Shown piece after piece: positions 4,104 through 15,858 of a DNA stretch of 17,500 nt (the stretch's first letter is position 1; each line of letters starts with the position of its first letter). The translations under genes were made by a program, and so were the position numbers. The notes under the pieces were generated by a model, which did no database searches, was not told where the DNA came from, and worked only from the letters and a program-made list of their open reading frames with translations. Source of the stretch: Monoraphidium neglectum (Eukaryota > Chlorophyta > Chlorophyceae > Sphaeropleales > Selenastraceae); assembly GCF_000611645.1 (NCBI RefSeq), contig NW_014013228.1, forward strand, positions 1 through 17,500. Reading direction: 5' to 3'.

Positions 4104-4430
4104 TCACACCCGGCTGGGGTAGAGCATCACGCGCACCGACGCGCCGAGGCTCTTCGGGGGCAGGTTCTTCCTGAACTTTGAGCGCACGGTGCCGCCGCTG
4201 CCGTGGGCGCGCGTGACCTTGCCCCAGATGACCCGCAGCTTGGATCCCTGCTTCTCGGTGTGGGCGCGGTAGATGTAGGCGATGCGCTTGCCCAGGTAGA
4301 AGTCCAGCTCCTTCTTGGACGCCACGCCGTCGATCTTGATGAGCGCCGTGTGGTTGTGCTGGTTAGCCTTGGCCCGCTTGTAGCCCAGGATTTGGCCCTT
4401 CACGAACAGCCGCACGGTCTCGCCCCCCAT
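4104..4430 (-). CDS. RPL35A: 60S ribosomal protein eL33 (RPL35A)
   Basis: This 108-residue protein is a structural component of the cytosolic large ribosomal subunit. The whole family pattern is present in order: [74 protein letters not shown] and the terminal [10 protein letters not shown]. The length is that of the family. The start was chosen because the conserved protein begins there. The open frame extends upstream to 4697, but that part has no family resemblance and carries a likely splice acceptor (CTTGCAG ending 10 nt before the ATG), suggesting an intron in the 5' UTR. The coding region itself has no intron, which is unusual beside its intron-bearing neighbours. It diverges from the S9A peptidase gene. 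Confidence 0.97.
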
Positions 4431-5017
4431 GTTGGCTTGCTGCAAGCGCGGGAGGAGTGCAGCGGGGGCAGCAGCGATACGATGGGTGCAGAGGCAAGGG
4501 CGAAACAACGTCCAGGGGCGGGTGCAGCTGTACCAACAGCTAAAAGGAACTCGCGGCTGCTTGTTGCCACGGCCAGCAGCCACTGAGCTTGCAAGTCGGC
4601 CCGTGCAGCAGCCACTCCGCGGGATGCTGCTGGCTGCGCGTGCTCCTCTGGACGTCCCGCACCTTGGCCTTAAGAGCGCTGGTATCAAGGCTGGCAACGA
4701 AGAGGGCGTTGCACGGTCCTGCTGTGAGCTTTGTGCTTTGGCATTACAGTGCCTGCCTAGCTTCGGGCCCGGCTTCTGTTATGTTGTGCATGCGGTGAGC
4801 CGAGAAAGCATATATACGTTGGACCTGATAGCGGATGGCAGGAAACCGAGCCAGAGCAAGGTGCAGTGTCTTGCTGCCCAGATCAGCGTTGCGGTGGTGC
4901 GCTGCGCGCGGCGCTCGGCTCCGCTCTGCGCCATGGGTCCATTAGTAACAGGCTTGGGCGGCATCTTGAGGCTAGTCTCAATTATACAAAACCGTGCTTC
5001 ATACAGCCGGGCTTGAC
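4431..5017. promoter_or_regulatory. Bidirectional upstream region, RPL35A and S9A peptidase
   Basis: These 587 bp hold the 5' UTRs and promoters of two divergent genes. A TATATA hexamer lies at 4811-4816; being palindromic, it could serve either strand. It is about 200 bp upstream of the peptidase ATG and 380 bp upstream of the RPL35A ATG. An acceptor-like CTTGCAG just before the RPL35A ATG suggests a 5' UTR intron there. No coding sequence was recognised. Confidence 0.45.
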
Positions 5018-8000
5018 ATGACCGCATTGCTGACGAGCCGCGGCGTGACCAGCGACTGGTGCAGGCCCATTGAGCCATCGTGCACCCCGCGGCAGTGGCC
5101 AAGGCTGCTGCGGCCGCGCGGAGCACGGCGGTCCTGCAGCGCGGGAACGTCGCGCGCCTCGCCAGCGCCGGGCCCGGCCTCCAGCCCCGGGCCCGCCCCA
5201 CCGCCCTCGCCCTCGGACCCGACCACGCCGCCCGTGCCGCGGGTGGGCGCGGCCGAGCCTTTGCTGTGGAGGGGCGCCGAACTGCACCGCGATGAGTTTG
5301 CTTGGATCTGGCGGCAGGGATTTGAGGATTCAGAGGTGCTGCAATACCTCAGCGAAGAGAACAGGTGGGCGCCGCGGCAGCTGCCGAGCGCCGCAGAGGC
5401 GCATCCACACGCGCGCAGCCCGCGTGCGCTGCGCATGCATCGCCATGCGGCGCCTGCGCTGGCGGTGACGCTTCAGGCCTGGCGCACACACACACCAGCG
5501 CATGTGGGGTGCATCAAACTCCATGCGGCATACTCCCGGACACGCCCGGCTGCACAATGCCGGCTCCCTTGACGCTGACTGGCGCAGGTACGCCGCCGCC
5601 GCGATGGCGCACACCAAGCCCCTGCAACGCCGCCTGCAGGCGCTGCTGCAAGAGTGGCGCCTGCATTCGGCGATGAAGGAGGCTGCTGCTGCGGCTGCTG
5701 CTAACGACGATTATGATGACGTTATCGAAAGCGGTACTGAAGGCCTCCTTGAGCTGCGTCAACAGGCGCAGCCCAGCAGCGACTCAGGCACAAGCCACGG
5801 GCCTGCAGCCGTCGGCGCCGTCACCCCTGGTGCGGCCGCCGCTCCGGACCTGATCAGCAGCTGCGGCCGCATCAGCCCGGCCACCACCTTGATGGCGTGG
5901 CGCCCGACGCGCGGATATGGCCCCAGGGGGCGTGCAATAGGTCGCCACATTTACTGGACGGAGCGGCAGCCGGGGTCTGCTTTGAGAGTCCATTACCGGC
6001 GGGCGCTCGGCGGCGTCACAGGGCCTGGCAAATGCACCGGTGGCAGCGGGGCCGCGACCCTTGCGGCGGTGGAGCTGGTTCTAGACGAGCGCAAGGCTGC
6101 TGGCAGCGCCGGGGAGGGCCATTACACCCTTCACAGCCTGGATGTTTCGCCAGCAGGCGACCTTGTCGCTGTAGTGGAGCGGCGCATGACCGGTGGCCCG
6201 CTCGAGCTGCGCGTGGTGCGCATCGGAGGGGGCCGGGAGCAGCTTGCCGCAGTCAGCCCTGTGGCAGGGCCGGCGGTTTGGGCCTCCTTTGCACCTGTTT
6301 TGGCCGACAGTGTGAGCACTAGGAGCAGCAGCAGCAGCAGCAGCAGCAATAGTAGCAGCATTTTGACACCGGGTGCGCCGCCCTCTGTGGCGCCTGGAGA
6401 TAGCGAGATGAACGACTGGGGACCGGAGGGAAGTGAGCAGCGGCAGCAGCCACAGCAGCCACAGCAGCAGCAGCAGCAGCAGCAGCAGCACCTGCTGTAC
6501 CTCTGCGCGGGTGAGATGGACGTGCGGGCGCTCTCGTTCACCACTGAGGGCAGCAACAACGCTGGTCCGCCTGCAGCATTGCAGCAGCCTATTGTGCCGC
6601 AGCAGCAGCACGGCACACTTGTGTACAGCGATCCCTGGGGCGTGCGCGCGTGCCTGTGGCGCAGCGCGCCCATCGGCCAAGGCGACGGCGGGGGCACGTG
6701 GGTGGTCTTTGTGGCGGGCCTAGCACCCGACAACACCCCTGTGGAGGTGCGCTGCCTGCCGCCCGGCGGCGACCCGCTCCGGGGCATCGTGCGCCGCTGT
6801 GGCGGCGGCGGCAGCGGCGGCGGCAGCGACGACGAGGCCTCTCGAACCATGGCAGGGGGGGAGGCCAGGGTCAGCCTGGCCGCTGCTCATGGCCTGGCAG
6901 CTTCTGGCAGTGGCTGGGTTGGGGTTCTGCCCGTTGACTCAGCGGCCCGGATGGCAGTGAGCTCCTGGGGCGGCTGGCTCTTTGCTCGGTGGGTAGCCTT
7001 CCTTATGGTGGGGTTGGATTTGGTATGCCAGGGAAGAACGGTCTGCTGATTGGTACCACATGGCGCATGTGTGCCCCTCACTTGTCAACAAAGCCAGTGA
7101 GCCTGGTCAACTGTGCATCCCCACCCCAATTCGACTGCAGGCAGTGGTCAGGCACAAGCCCAGGCGGCACCCTGTCAGTGTCCCGGATGCCGTGGTCCCC
7201 TCCCAGCAGTGGCGGCGGTGGCAGCATCAGCAGCGGCGGCAGCGGCAGCGCCTGCGCGGCGGACCGCCTTCCCTGGCAGCGCCTGCTGTCCGCAGAGCCC
7301 GGCTGCCGCTTCGAGGCGCTTCTCCTGCCTCCGGAAGCAAGCGGCACAGGTGCTGGCGACGGCGCGCTGGCGCCGCGCGAGGTGCTGCTGCTCTGCCGGC
7401 TGCTGGACGCTGAAGGCGGCTGCAGTGAGCGCCTGGTGGCGCGCCTGCTGCATCTTCAGCTCGCTGAGGACGCCAGCTGCGGCGGTAGCGGCATCGGTGA
7501 TGGCAGCTGTGCAGCGGGCGGAGTTTCGCTGCGGGTGGCGGCAGAGTACGAAGTGCCTCTGCCTGACGTCTCGTGTGTACTGCGTGGCGTGACCTGGGAG
7601 TGGATGGGCGTCAACGGTTGGACAGTGCCACAGCTCCAGAAGCAACAGGTTCTGCAGGGGCAACAGGAGCTGCAGAAGCAGCAAAAGCAGCAGGAGCAGC
7701 AGGAGCAGCAGCAGCCGCTGGGGCAGCTTCTGATGAGCTTCTCGTCCCTCGTCACGCCGCCCTCTCAGCTGCTGCTCGACCTGGCGGCCGGCGCCACAGC
7801 GCGGCTGCTGCTGGGCGGCGCCGCTGCGGCGGTGGCCGCCCACCCTGCGTTTGACCGCACGCGGTACCGCCTCGCCACAACCTCGGCCGCCGCGCACGAC
7901 GGCACCCGGGTGCCCATCACCATCGCTTGGCACGAAGCAAAGCGCGCGGCGCTGCAGGCAGGGCTGTGCAGCGAGGACGGGCGCGGCGGCGGGCCGCCGC

Positions 8001-8905
8001 TGGTGCTGCATGCCTACGGCAGCTTCGGGCTCCCCGAGGCTGAGGCGGCCTTCGATGAGTCGAGGCTGCTGCTCATGCAACTGGGCTTCGCCGTGGCCAT
8101 CGCGCACGTCCGAGGCGGCGGCTGGCTGGGCCGCGCTTGGGCTGAGGCAGGGCGCGGCGCGGCGCGCAAGGCGCGGGTGTCGGTCGCTGACCTGTCGGCG
8201 GCCGCCGACATGCTGGTCGCGCGCGGTGCGTGCGCGCGCGGCCGCCTGGCGCTGGCCGGCGCGAGCGCGGGCGGCTGGCTGGTCGGCGGCGCGCTGGCTG
8301 CGAGGCCGGGGCTGGCTGCGGCGGCGGTGCTGACTGTGCCGTGCCTGGACCCCCTTGAGGCCCTGGTGCGGCACAAGCAGGGTAGCCTAGAATGGATCGG
8401 CGCAGAGGAGCACGGCGGCGGGGCGGGGGGCAATGGTGATGGTGATGGCGACCGCGATAGCGATAGCGACAGCGCGGCGGCGGCGGTGGCGGCGCTGGCG
8501 GGGTGGTCGCCGTATCAACACCTAGAGGCCCTCGCGGCAGCGGGGATACCGGCGCCGGGAGCCACGGAGGGCGGCGACTTGCCGGGGCCGCCGCACCTGC
8601 TGCTGCGCGCCGCGCTGCACGACCGCGACGTCGGCTTCTGGGACGCCGCGAAGGCCACCGCGCGCCTGCGTCGCCTGCGCGCCGCCGCGGCCGGCGACGG
8701 GCGGGGCCCGCGTGCTGCAGAGCCGATGCTGCTGCTGCGGACAGTGCCAGGCAGCCACGGCGCGTACGAGGGGGACACAAAAGAGGCGGCCCTGGGGGCG
8801 GCGTTCCTGGTCGAGGCGCTGGCGGGGCAGGGGCAGCTGCTGGCCGCGCTAAGCGCCGGGGCTGCGGAGGGTGACGGCGGCTGGGGGGTGGTGGATTGGT
8901 TGTAG
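5018..8905 (+). CDS. S9A serine peptidase, oligopeptidase B/prolyl oligopeptidase-like, three exons
   Basis: Exons 5018-5364, 5588-6988 and 7141-8905 join in phase 2 (donors AG|GTGGGC and CG|GTGGGT) to give 1170 aa; the family is usually about 690-800 aa. The N-terminus is Arg/Ser/Pro-rich and could be an organelle transit peptide. Next comes the family start (DEFAWIWRQ, VLQYLSEENRY), then a propeller with GRHIYWTERQPG and LHSLDVSPAGD. The catalytic domain has VLHAYGSFG, HVRGGGWLGRAW, the nucleophile Ser958 in GASAGG, Asp1077 in LHDRDV and His1122 in GSHGAYEG, so the triad is complete and spaced as expected. Such enzymes cleave short peptides, those of the oligopeptidase B branch after basic residues. 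The extra length is low-complexity sequence: Ser8, Gln9, a Gln/Glu/Leu tract near 7640-7725 and Gly/Asp tracts. The Glu usual in RGGGE is Trp here. An ATG at 4994 in the same frame is an alternative start. Confidence 0.9.
6324..6347 (+). repeat. AGC trinucleotide repeat (8 units) coding poly-Ser
   Basis: Eight AGC codons in the peptidase propeller region encode Ser8, followed by Asn-Ser-Ser-Ser. The tract lies in a poorly conserved loop and is likely to vary in length between strains. Confidence 0.9.
6462..6488 (+). repeat. CAG trinucleotide repeat (9 units) coding poly-Gln
   Basis: Nine CAG codons encode Gln9, preceded by two shorter Gln-Pro stretches, in the same propeller insertion as the Ser tract. 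The reading frame is kept on both sides. Confidence 0.9.
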
Positions 8906-9219: not shown

Positions 9220-10237
9220 CTAATCCTCGTCATCGTCAGAAATGACCGCGCGCCGCCGCTTCGCCTTGGCACTTGGCGTGCCCGCCGCAGCTGCCTCCAC
9301 ACCCGCCGCGCCCGTGGCCGACGCGCCGCCAGCTGTGGGCCCGGCCTCCGCCTCGTCGTCCTCATCTTCAAACAGCTCCCTCAGCTGCTGCTCCTGAAGC
9401 TGCCGCGCAGCTGACTGCGGCGCCTCAGCCCCGTCTCCCTGCGCCACGTCATCCTCCAGCAGGGCGTCCTCCTCCGCCGCCCGCTGCTCCCCCGACACGT
9501 CTGCCGCCACCGCCCCCGACGCCGCGGCCGCGCGGAGACGCCCTGACGGCTGCCGCCCGCCGCGCGCGATCTGCAAAGCCGGCCGCGGCGCGGCCGCCGT
9601 CGCGCGGGCCGGCTCGAAATCGTCGTCGTCATCGTCGTCCCACGATGCCAGCCGCGCAGCGCTGCTGCCCAGCACCGGCTCGGCCCCTGCTTCGTCCTCC
9701 TCCGGCCCTGGTGGCGGGGCCCTCGGCTGGACGGGCTGGGCTGCCCCCCCGGTCCGCTTGAGCTGCAGGGGGAGTCGAACCTTGGGCGCCGCGCCACCGG
9801 CGGGGGCCTGCTGCTGTGGCTCAAGCGCCTGCTGCTGCTGCTGCTGCTGCTCCTGCTGCTGCTGCTGCTGCTGCAGCAGCTTTTCCTTCTGCTGCTGCCG
9901 CAGGAGCTTGGCCGCGTCCTTGTTCCCTGCGAGCGCCTGCAGCGACAGCCGCGACACCGCCTCCCTCTGACCCACTGGCTGCACAGGGTGCTTGCCGGCG
10001 CGCCGCTCGGGCTGCTGCTGAGCGCGCTGCTGCGGGGCGTGCACGGCGCGCGGAAGAGGGGCTGAACGAATGAGTACAGTGGAAGGACCCGTGCAATCAG
10101 ATGCAGTGCATTTGCACATGTGCGCGTTCAATTTTGTGGCGCCTGCACATGTATGGGCATAACTGCAGAGACAATGTGGGGGCATGGCCAATGGCTTCAC
10201 GACAGTTGACCAATCCCCACCTGCCGCAACCCCCATC

Positions 10238-10272
<35 letters not shown>

Positions 10273-11688
10273 GGGCACGCGGCGGCGCCTCGGCCGCCCG
10301 TGCTGGGCGGAATGCGGCGTCTTCCCCTGTGCTGGTGCCGCGCCGCGCAAGCATTGAGCCTGCGGAGCCGCGAAGCATCGCGTGCGCACGAACCGCGCGG
10401 GGTGGGTCAGAGCGCTGACGACGGGTCGTGACGACGAGCAGGTTGAAGCCAGGACACGGCCTGGAGTAATGGCAACACCAAAAACATCCAAGCTTCACAT
10501 TGCGGCAAAAAGGAACTTGCCCCGGCGTGCGACCGCTGCGTTGGAAAGCAATCGCCCCTTTGGCTTTGTGCCAGCCCCAGTCGTGCAGAGGGCTGCGACT
10601 CATCCCACCTTGCCGCGGCAGCCCTTTGGGGCTGAGCGGGCCCGGCGCCCGGGCGCGCACGCGCAGGGCGGGCACCTCCCCGGGCGCTCTGGGGGTGAAG
10701 TGGTGGTGCTGCCGCTGCTGCTGCGCCGCCGCAGCCTCGGCGTTTGACGGCGCCAGGTACAACTCCTGCGGCAGTTGGCGTTTGGTGGGGAGGGGCTGGG
10801 AGTGGTTGGGGGCGCATGCCACCGCGGCCGGGCCTGCAGCCACAGAGACACCCGAGAGGACTGGATACGAGCAGCGATATGCTCTGCAGTCGCAGGCACC
10901 AACAGCAGACCCCACACCCACCCCTGGTCGCGCCGCGCCGCACCTCAAGAGGGGGGTACAGGTGCGCGTTGGTGCAGCCGGCCGCGAGCTCCCGCAGCCG
11001 CGCCACGGTCGCGTTCACCTGCGGGGTGGCTCAAGAAGGCGCAAAGGATGGCAAACCTGGTCCGCGCGGCTGTGCAGGGGCGGCGGCGGCGGCGCTGCTT
11101 CTAGCGGGGGCATGGCTCGTTGCGCGGCGCGGCGACGGCTCCTGCAATCTGCGGCTGGCCGAACCGGCGCTCTTCGCTGCTCAGCTGCTCCTCTTGCTGT
11201 CTCCAATGCGGCCCGTGGGCCCCCGTCCAATGCATCCCGCCGCCCTCCCTTTGCGCCAGCTTTTCAGGGAGCCTGCCCACCTTGGGGTTGGCAGCGCACA
11301 CCGCACCGAGGTCCAGCCGTCCATCAAAGTCCCCCGCGGCAGCGCCCAGCACCTTGACCCACGCATCGTCGTCCGCCAGGGCCATGTCCCCCAGCCGTCG
11401 CAGCTGCGCCGCGAGCTGGCTGCCGCCGCCCGGTTGCTGCTGCTGCGACTGCAAGCCGCCAGTCTCGGCGCCAGCCGCAGCCGCAGCCGCGGCGCCACGC
11501 GGCTGCTGGCGGGACGCGGCCATTAGGCAGGAGAGAATGAGGCGCGCCTTGACCAAGGGGTCGAGGGATTCGAACGCGTCTGTTGACAGCTGGGCAAGGA
11601 GCTCCGGCTTGGGCTGGAACCGGTCCGCGCTCCAGTCGTCGCCCAGGCGCGAGGACAGCAGGTACCCCAGGTTGGGAGCGGGGTCCAT
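9220..11688 (-). CDS. NELF-A-like negative elongation factor subunit, about five exons
   Basis: Exons 1-2 are well supported: 11281-11688 (136 codons, start context GCCATGG) and 10944-11018 (25 codons). Exon 3 starts at 10765. All these junctions are phase 0 (AAG|GTGGGC, GAG|GTGCGG). The joined protein follows the NELF-A N-terminal domain in order: LGYLLSSRLGDDWSADRF, a helical segment with DPLVKARLILSCLMA, DDAWVKVLGAAAGDF, LDLGAVCAANPK, then VARLRELAAGC and LYPPLEELYL across the exon 2/3 junction. In animals NELF-A holds RNA polymerase II in promoter-proximal pause. The middle is uncertain: exon 3 may end at 10609 (phase 1), or an exon 10271-10414 may join 9220-10029 in phase 0. The last exon has a Gln tract, acidic clusters (SWDDDDDDDFEP, LFEDEDDEAEAG) and a basic KAKRRR stretch before the end. 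It bears no clear resemblance to the animal C-terminus. The family call rests on the first ~170 residues. Confidence 0.78.
9829..9873 (-). repeat. CAG repeat coding poly-Gln in the NELF-A-like gene
   Basis: On the coding (minus) strand this is seven CAG codons, one GAG and seven more CAG codons, giving Gln7-Glu-Gln7. More Gln codons flank it. It lies just after KLLRQQQKEK in the last exon, probably a disordered linker. Confidence 0.85.
10239..10270 (-). repeat. (GT)16 microsatellite at a candidate splice donor
   Basis: Sixteen AC units on the plus strand read as (GT)16 on the coding strand of the NELF-A-like gene. The repeat directly follows CCCAG, so the sequence CCCAG|GTGTGT makes its first GT a candidate 5' splice site of the intron before the last exon. 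Confidence 0.85.
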
Positions 11689-14294: not shown

Positions 14295-15858
14295 ATGCCC
14301 GCAGCTTCCGGATGCACCCCGGCGGTGCCCGCTGTGGCGGCGTGCGCAGCGGCGGCGCCTGCTGCGCCTTCGCGACGCACGTCGTATCTGACGACCCAGG
14401 ACCTGGAGTTGGTGCGAACGAGCCTTGCAGCACGAATGGCCATTGAGGCGCCCACGCAGGCTCCTCAGCAGCAGCGGCAGAAGACACGGGAGCAGCAGAG
14501 ACAGCCGCCGTGCGCGAAAGGTGGGTGTTGCGATGGCGACCGTGGATGATGTAAGCGCTGTGCATGGATTGGCGTTGGCGCAGCGGGCAAGTGCACATTG
14601 GGCATCACATTGTTGTTGTCGCACTGCTGCACCCTTTCGCGCGATAGGTGCCATGGCAGCCACTTCGTGTTGGAAGCCGCGCTGTGTGGCTGCGCTCGCA
14701 CCCGTCCACGTCGCCGGCCCCCCTCACACGCTCCCCTCCATCCCTCGCTGCACAGCAGCCTACCACCCGTCCGAGGGCTGGCGGACGCAGCCGCATCACC
14801 TTAGCAAGGAGCAGCTGTGGGAGAGGATCCGGCAGGAGTGCAAGCGTGATGCGGTGAGCAGGGTTTGCTGGTATGGTATGCTGCACTTGTGCCAAGCAAG
14901 CTAGGTTCGGTCAACGCGTCTCCGCATTGCGATCGCCAGGCCAGGATTGCGGCGCCACTGCAGGGAAAGGCTTGGCGGGGCCAGGAGCGGCAATCGCACA
15001 GCTGAGCTGCTCGGTTCCATGCGAGCGGTCCTCTCACGCGTAGCACGCACAATGCCACCGCGCCGCTGACGCGCGCGCACGCTTGCGCCCCACCTCGGAA
15101 CGTTGTCCCAACCGCAGGATGACGAGCCCACCCTGGCCAGCTTCCTTTACAGCAGCATCCTGGCCCACAAGAGCTTGGAGCAGGCGCTGGCCTTTGTCCT
15201 GGCCAACAAGCTGGCCAGCCCCACCCTCTACAGCACCCAGCTCAAGCAGATTGCGGAGGACGTGTACAGGGAGGACCCCTCGGTCATGGAGGCGGCCATG
15301 GCGGACCTGCACGCCGTGCTGGACCGCGACCCGGCCTGCGACCGCTACACCCAGGCGCTGCTGCACTTCAAGGGCTACCAGGCCGTGCAGTCGCACCGCA
15401 TCGCGCACCACCTGTGGCTCCGCGGGCGGCGCGCACTTGCGCTGATGCTGCAGTCGCGGATCAGCGAGGCGTTCCACGTCGACATCCATCCCGCGGCGCG
15501 GGTCGGGCGCGGCATACTGCTCGACCACGCGACGGGCGTGGTCATCGGCGAGACCGCCGCCATCGGGGACAACGTGTCGATGCTGCACCACGTCACACTG
15601 GGCGGCAGCGGCATCGGCAGTGGCGTGCGCCACCCGCAGGTCGGGCACGGCGTGCTGCTGGGCGCGGGCGTCACCGTGCTGGGGCCGGTGACGCTGGGCC
15701 CTGGCGCCAAGGTGGGCGCGGGCAGCGTCGTGGTGACAGACCTGGAGCCGCACAGCGTCGCCGTCGGCGTGCCGGCGCGCGTCATCAAGCGCGCCGCGGA
15801 GTCTGAGCCCTGCGATGATATGGACCAGATCGGGTTTCTGCTGGACTATGTGATCTGA
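14295..15858 (+). CDS. Serine O-acetyltransferase, three exons
   Basis: The enzyme makes O-acetylserine from serine and acetyl-CoA, the step committing serine to cysteine. Exons 14295-14520, 14756-14853 and 15118-15858 join in phases 1 and 0 (donors AAAG|GTGGGT, GCG|GTGAGC) to give 354 aa. The N-terminal ~75 residues are Ala/Pro-rich then Gln-rich, resembling an organelle targeting sequence. The family helical domain follows: QLWERIRQECKRDA spliced to DDEPTLASFLYSSILAHKSL, and YTQALLHFKGYQAVQSHRIA. The left-handed beta-helix has VDIHPAARVGRGILLDHATG, where Asp230 and His245 match E. coli CysE catalytic Asp143 and His158 with equal spacing. The protein ends in DYVI, the C-terminal Ile tail that inserts into O-acetylserine (thiol)lyase in the cysteine synthase complex. 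The loop usually read as GDRHPK is GVRHPQ here. An in-frame ATG at 14247 is an alternative start. Confidence 0.95.

Follow-up and report, generated by a model that had tools for sequence, protein, structure and literature searches.

A NELF-A gene with an apparently distinct C-terminal half in the green alga Monoraphidium neglectum

In animals, NELF holds RNA polymerase II (Pol II) just after the start of a gene, and a locus in the green alga Monoraphidium neglectum (Chlorophyceae, Sphaeropleales, Selenastraceae) raises the question of whether such a factor also exists, and might act, in green algae. The window analyzed here is a 17,500-nucleotide stretch of contig NW_014013228.1, listed as contig C389 in our genome searches, and the gene in question, MNEG_3252, lies at positions 9220-11688 on its minus strand, where the public annotation gives a “hypothetical protein” of 512 amino acids. 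A preliminary description of this DNA had proposed a NELF-A-type factor in this lineage, and this proposal is borne out by a sequence profile, a predicted fold, the retained NELF-C-contact tryptophans and the presence of a NELF-B exon elsewhere in this genome. MNEG_3252 almost certainly belongs to NELF-A, and the label “hypothetical protein” can be replaced.

Taken alone, the MNEG_3252 sequence is weak evidence for NELF-A. The Pfam family NELF-A_N scored it at 14.5 bits, below the cut-off of 27, NELF-A was absent among six weak PDB matches from a single-sequence search, and five relatives searched as whole proteins (P0001-P0005) gave no NELF-A match at E <= 1. When N-terminal pieces of five relatives were used, NELF-A_N was matched by two of the five at E <= 10, and DUF6456 and DUF5577 were matched weakly, by one piece each; a five-row profile ranked human NELF-A first in PDB, with an E-value of only 0.068. 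A profile of eight algal proteins, trimmed to the N-terminal part (alignment A4), was then compared with 177,635 PDB sequences. Its first three ranks were all NELF-A (E-values of 5.6e-7, 7.7e-6 and 7.9e-6), followed by the best unrelated sequence at 0.98; a better-scoring family, which the preliminary description had named as a refutation, did not appear in this search, and none came near. Similarly, a profile of 26 relatives (all 27 proteins found except P0013, the window's own frame) scored human NELF-A 1-236 at 24.6 bits, whereas the highest score among 2,000 shuffles of that sequence was 7.3 bits. In hhalign, the 26 algal rows aligned to human NELF-A with a probability of 96.4; this alignment spans 136 columns and shows ~26% identity. 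The human NELF-A 1-236 sequence used here is identical to PDB chain 6gml_U at 236 of 236 positions, and the human fragments quoted in the preliminary description are correct. All relatives came from protein searches that scored only ~8,000 candidates each and say nothing on other algae or land plants; the named ones bear the names Monoraphidium, Raphidocelis and Scenedesmus, all Sphaeropleales (an assignment that does not extend to the strain NREL 46B-D3), and one transcript record and unnamed sequences are added to them. It is highly improbable that MNEG_3252 is instead a small helical bundle of other descent that has come to resemble NELF-A by convergence, as NELF-A stands alone on top of the profile search, ranks first both by sequence and by fold, and is aligned colinearly over ~136 columns that include both functional tryptophans.

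Does the gene model hold? Five joined exons translate exactly to the public 512-residue protein, with GT/AG introns and a single frame throughout. The preliminary description had joined three of them (11281-11688, 10944-11018 and 10609-10765), whose GT/AG borders and common frame were confirmed, and the gene has two more. The five peptides quoted there are all encoded on the minus strand, with LYPPLEELYL crossing the second intron, and the match to NELF-A does cross two introns in agreeing phase, both being phase 0. The exons and introns are as follows.

11281-11688, minus strand: exon 1 (residues 1-136), opening the N-terminal helical domain of NELF-A and carrying W19 and W110; GT donor, joined coding sequence equal to MNEG_3252, NELF-A profile and fold matches
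11019-11280, minus strand: intron 1, phase 0, GT/AG, frame kept
10944-11018, minus strand: exon 2, which encodes a helix of the extended region (residues 137-161); AG/GT borders, aligned to human VQDILGELREK...PLE
10766-10943, minus strand: intron 2, phase 0, GT/AG, frame kept
10609-10765, minus strand: exon 3, residue 162 onwards, closing the conserved region and carrying the HF motif at residues 183-184; AG/GT borders, HF aligned to human VKHFQLKRK
10271-10359, minus strand: exon 4; AG/GT borders, required to reproduce MNEG_3252, with a similar stretch in Raphidocelis (P0002)
9220-10029, minus strand: exon 5, which encodes the polyQ and acidic tail and closes with the stop codon; joined coding sequence equal to MNEG_3252

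As the gene model rests on prediction, incorrectly placed splice sites or a pseudogene might be suspected. We give this explanation hardly any weight, since the frame is kept across five exons whose product equals the public protein, the homologue P0006, named by a TSA-style transcript accession, continues across these junctions, and residues are constrained across relatives. Several metagenomic fragments depart from the family at the residue of intron 1, as judged by eye. Two other exon boundaries were rejected: a last exon with its acceptor at 10062 (...GLPRQAPLPRA..., resembling human GIPKQAPFRS), in place of which the public protein uses 10271-10359 and 9220-10029, and an end of exon 4 at 10272, which is one base off, 10271 being correct. 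When residues 1-213 were searched against the genome (34.6 Mb in 1,632 contigs, presumably smaller than the published assembly and hence perhaps only a part of it), three matches were obtained, all inside this gene and none elsewhere.

Both the sequence profile and the predicted fold show that the N-terminal ~185 residues of MNEG_3252 make up the helical NELF-A domain together with its extended region. With the predicted fold of the N-terminal domain, a model of moderate confidence, NELF-A took rank 1 in Foldseek and ranks 1-5 in VIA. The fold-search alignment reaches only human residue 134-135 in clean rows, and the extended region (human 111-182) was aligned by hhalign up to human residue 175. 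Its motifs PLE..YL and HF are retained in MNEG_3252, and H183, F184 and R187 are kept in all seven rows of a further alignment (A3). According to the crystal-structure paper (PMC4940160), W24 and W89 of human NELF-A plug into pockets of NELF-C and are invariant in the alignment given there, and the extended region is essential for binding NELF-C. The exon 2 helix belongs to this extended region, which in human NELF-A contacts NELF-C. Both tryptophans have aligned partners in the alga, counted below among 26 rows that include many close relatives and fragments and are not 26 independent observations.

11632-11634, minus strand: codon of W19, aligned to human W24; W in 23 of the 26 relatives, the other three beginning later (gap)
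11359-11361, minus strand: codon of W110, aligned to human W89; W in 26 of the 26 relatives

Behind the domain, MNEG_3252 continues with a short variable stretch, a polyQ-rich segment and a basic, then acidic C-terminus, of which two parts can be delimited.

9823-9921, minus strand: polyQ-rich segment, residues 280-312, predicted as a single confident helix with pLDDT blocks of 86-96 over residues 281-310
9223-9267, minus strand: basic-then-acidic C-terminal end, residues 498-512, KAKRRRAVISDDDED, with similar ends in P0002, P0005 and P0007

A profile of six algal tails placed the human C-terminal stretch at rank 1,918 of the 1,926 rows listed, with -4.0 bits against 10.2 for the best shuffle, a comparison limited by a human segment that is in part approximate and by the poor alignment of disordered tails in general. 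The different polyQ and acidic C-terminus anticipated in the preliminary description thus agrees with the absence of a tail match to the human C-terminal region. An algal tail in which part of the animal HDAg-like region survives was considered as well; this idea fell with the 10062 acceptor, and the direct profile test was also negative. As far as sequence comparison can tell, MNEG_3252 is NELF-A in its N-terminal half, and no likeness to the animal protein can be recognised in its C-terminal half. A comparative study describes the HDAg-like domain as found only in animals and Capsaspora, though NELF-A homologues are named elsewhere (PMC11482795).

Are the partners of NELF-A present in the same genome? 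The search for NELF-B (COBRA1) proposed in the preliminary description yielded an exon at C40:53681-53890, on the minus strand, with 27.2 bits against a Pfam cut-off of 22. Its PDB matches, six of six, are human-type NELF-B, with E-values of 8e-4 to 9e-4 over approximately residues 292-381. This single exon (within the stretch C40:48900-53940) lies within 50 bases of the contig end at 53,940, and the rest of the NELF-B gene is partly missing because the exon adjoins that end. Joining further candidate NELF-B exons did not lengthen the match, which covered residues 16-107 only (E-value of 7.8e-4, compared with 8.1e-4 for the exon alone). For NELF-E, an RRM alone is not sufficient for identification. 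Searches of the 34.6 Mb for NELF-C/D (the TH1 family, and human NELF-C/D in long and short form) gave no match, nor did the Spt5-NGN family, and these negatives carry no weight because the NELF-A_N family search likewise missed a NELF-A gene that is certainly present. Spt5 is described as the most widely conserved of these factors in PMC4940160.

What, then, would the protein do? The best explanation overall, to which we assign a probability of roughly 0.85, is that MNEG_3252 is the NELF-A gene of M. neglectum and that its product would act as follows. W19 and W110 would insert into pockets of a NELF-C partner, as human W24 and W89 do, so that MNEG_3252 would join a NELF-A/C/B core; this core would bind the early elongating Pol II-DSIF complex and slow Pol II; and the polyQ helix and basic/acidic tail, standing in place of the Pol II-contacting part of the animal protein, may make the pause weaker or differently released. 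The parts of this proposal differ in strength. Membership in a complex containing NELF-B and NELF-C is quite likely, the NELF-B exon having been found and NELF-C not. That MNEG_3252 slows Pol II near promoters is something we only infer, with chances slightly better than even. More tentatively, and on balance doubtful at present, green-algal NELF may consist of A, B and C/D without NELF-E, and a polyQ helix and basic/acidic tail peculiar to the lineage may take the place of the Pol II-contacting region of animal NELF-A. If true, this would constitute a third design of pausing factor, beside animal NELF and the NELF-less land plants, and would make the NELF-A domain as old as the split between plants and animals.

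A NELF-A orthologue might also work outside pausing, with the NELF-C-binding domain kept and another nuclear role adopted, such as transcript termination or the control of stress responses. The failure of the algal tails to match the human C-terminal region is in line with such a role, as are the restriction of the HDAg-like domain noted above and the report that NELF-A-domain genes of Chlamydomonas occur in salt-response co-expression networks (PMC13089224). We consider this rather unlikely, as the retention of both NELF-C-contact tryptophans and the NELF-B exon in this genome suggest that the complex probably persists, and as NELF-B and C/D alone correlate with higher pausing than no NELF at all, according to PMC11482795.

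How new is a green-algal NELF-A? Less so than the preliminary description supposed. In the 2016 paper (PMC4940160), NELF-A and NELF-C homologues were already reported for Chlorella variabilis, likewise a green alga, and for Dictyostelium, from which an early origin and later losses were inferred, and a NELF-A in green algae is therefore not in itself unprecedented. Chlorella is a like case, compared here by report and not by sequence. Chlorella belongs to the Trebouxiophyceae and Monoraphidium to the Chlorophyceae. In 2026, Cre07.g357500 and Cre10.g454350 of Chlamydomonas reinhardtii were listed with a NELF-A domain, and the domain was called previously unreported in plants (PMC13089224); they share algal class and domain name with MNEG_3252, the domain call being those authors' own and the comparison made by description, and neither appeared in one of our protein searches, which scored ~8,000 candidates. 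In PMC11482795, NELF-B and C/D are widespread and were lost in land plants, NELF-A homologues occur in some unicellular eukaryotes, and NELF-A is treated as more recently derived. A literature search that did not use the names Monoraphidium, Raphidocelis and Scenedesmus, and that largely left out subscription journals, listed no work on NELF in these three genera, and we claim no absence from it.

The present work adds a chlorophycean NELF-A with its gene structure, fold and contact residues, accompanied by an exon of NELF-B from the genome of this alga. MNEG_3252 resembles human NELF-A in segment order, helical fold, the two NELF-C-contact tryptophans and the PLE-x-x-YL and HF motifs, whereas it is only ~26% identical in the aligned domain, carries an alanine/glutamine-rich insert in mid-domain and, in place of a recognisable HDAg-like/Pol II-binding region, ends in a polyQ and acidic tail. 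MNEG_3252 is consistent with an older N-terminal domain to which the animal C-terminal part was added later, and supports the presence of the NELF-C-binding domain of NELF-A in the common ancestor of plants and animals, followed by loss toward land plants. Genetically tractable green algae could show directly what NELF does without the animal additions.

The remainder of the window holds several other genes. Tail to tail with the NELF-A gene, which ends in its stop codon at 9220, lies the C-terminal exon of a prolyl oligopeptidase (6938-8905, plus strand; Peptidase_S9, 85 bits). An open frame at 2016-2951 on the plus strand contains a VLRF1 release-factor domain, recognised as bVLRF1 at 60 bits (cut-off 27), and probably encodes a Vms1/ANKZF1-type protein. 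In addition, ribosomal protein L35Ae (140 bits) is encoded at 4104-4778 on the minus strand, an aldo/keto reductase exon (31.5 bits) at 302-562 on the minus strand, and a serine acetyltransferase in one open frame at 15070-15858 on the plus strand (SATase_N 120 bits, with hexapeptide repeats).
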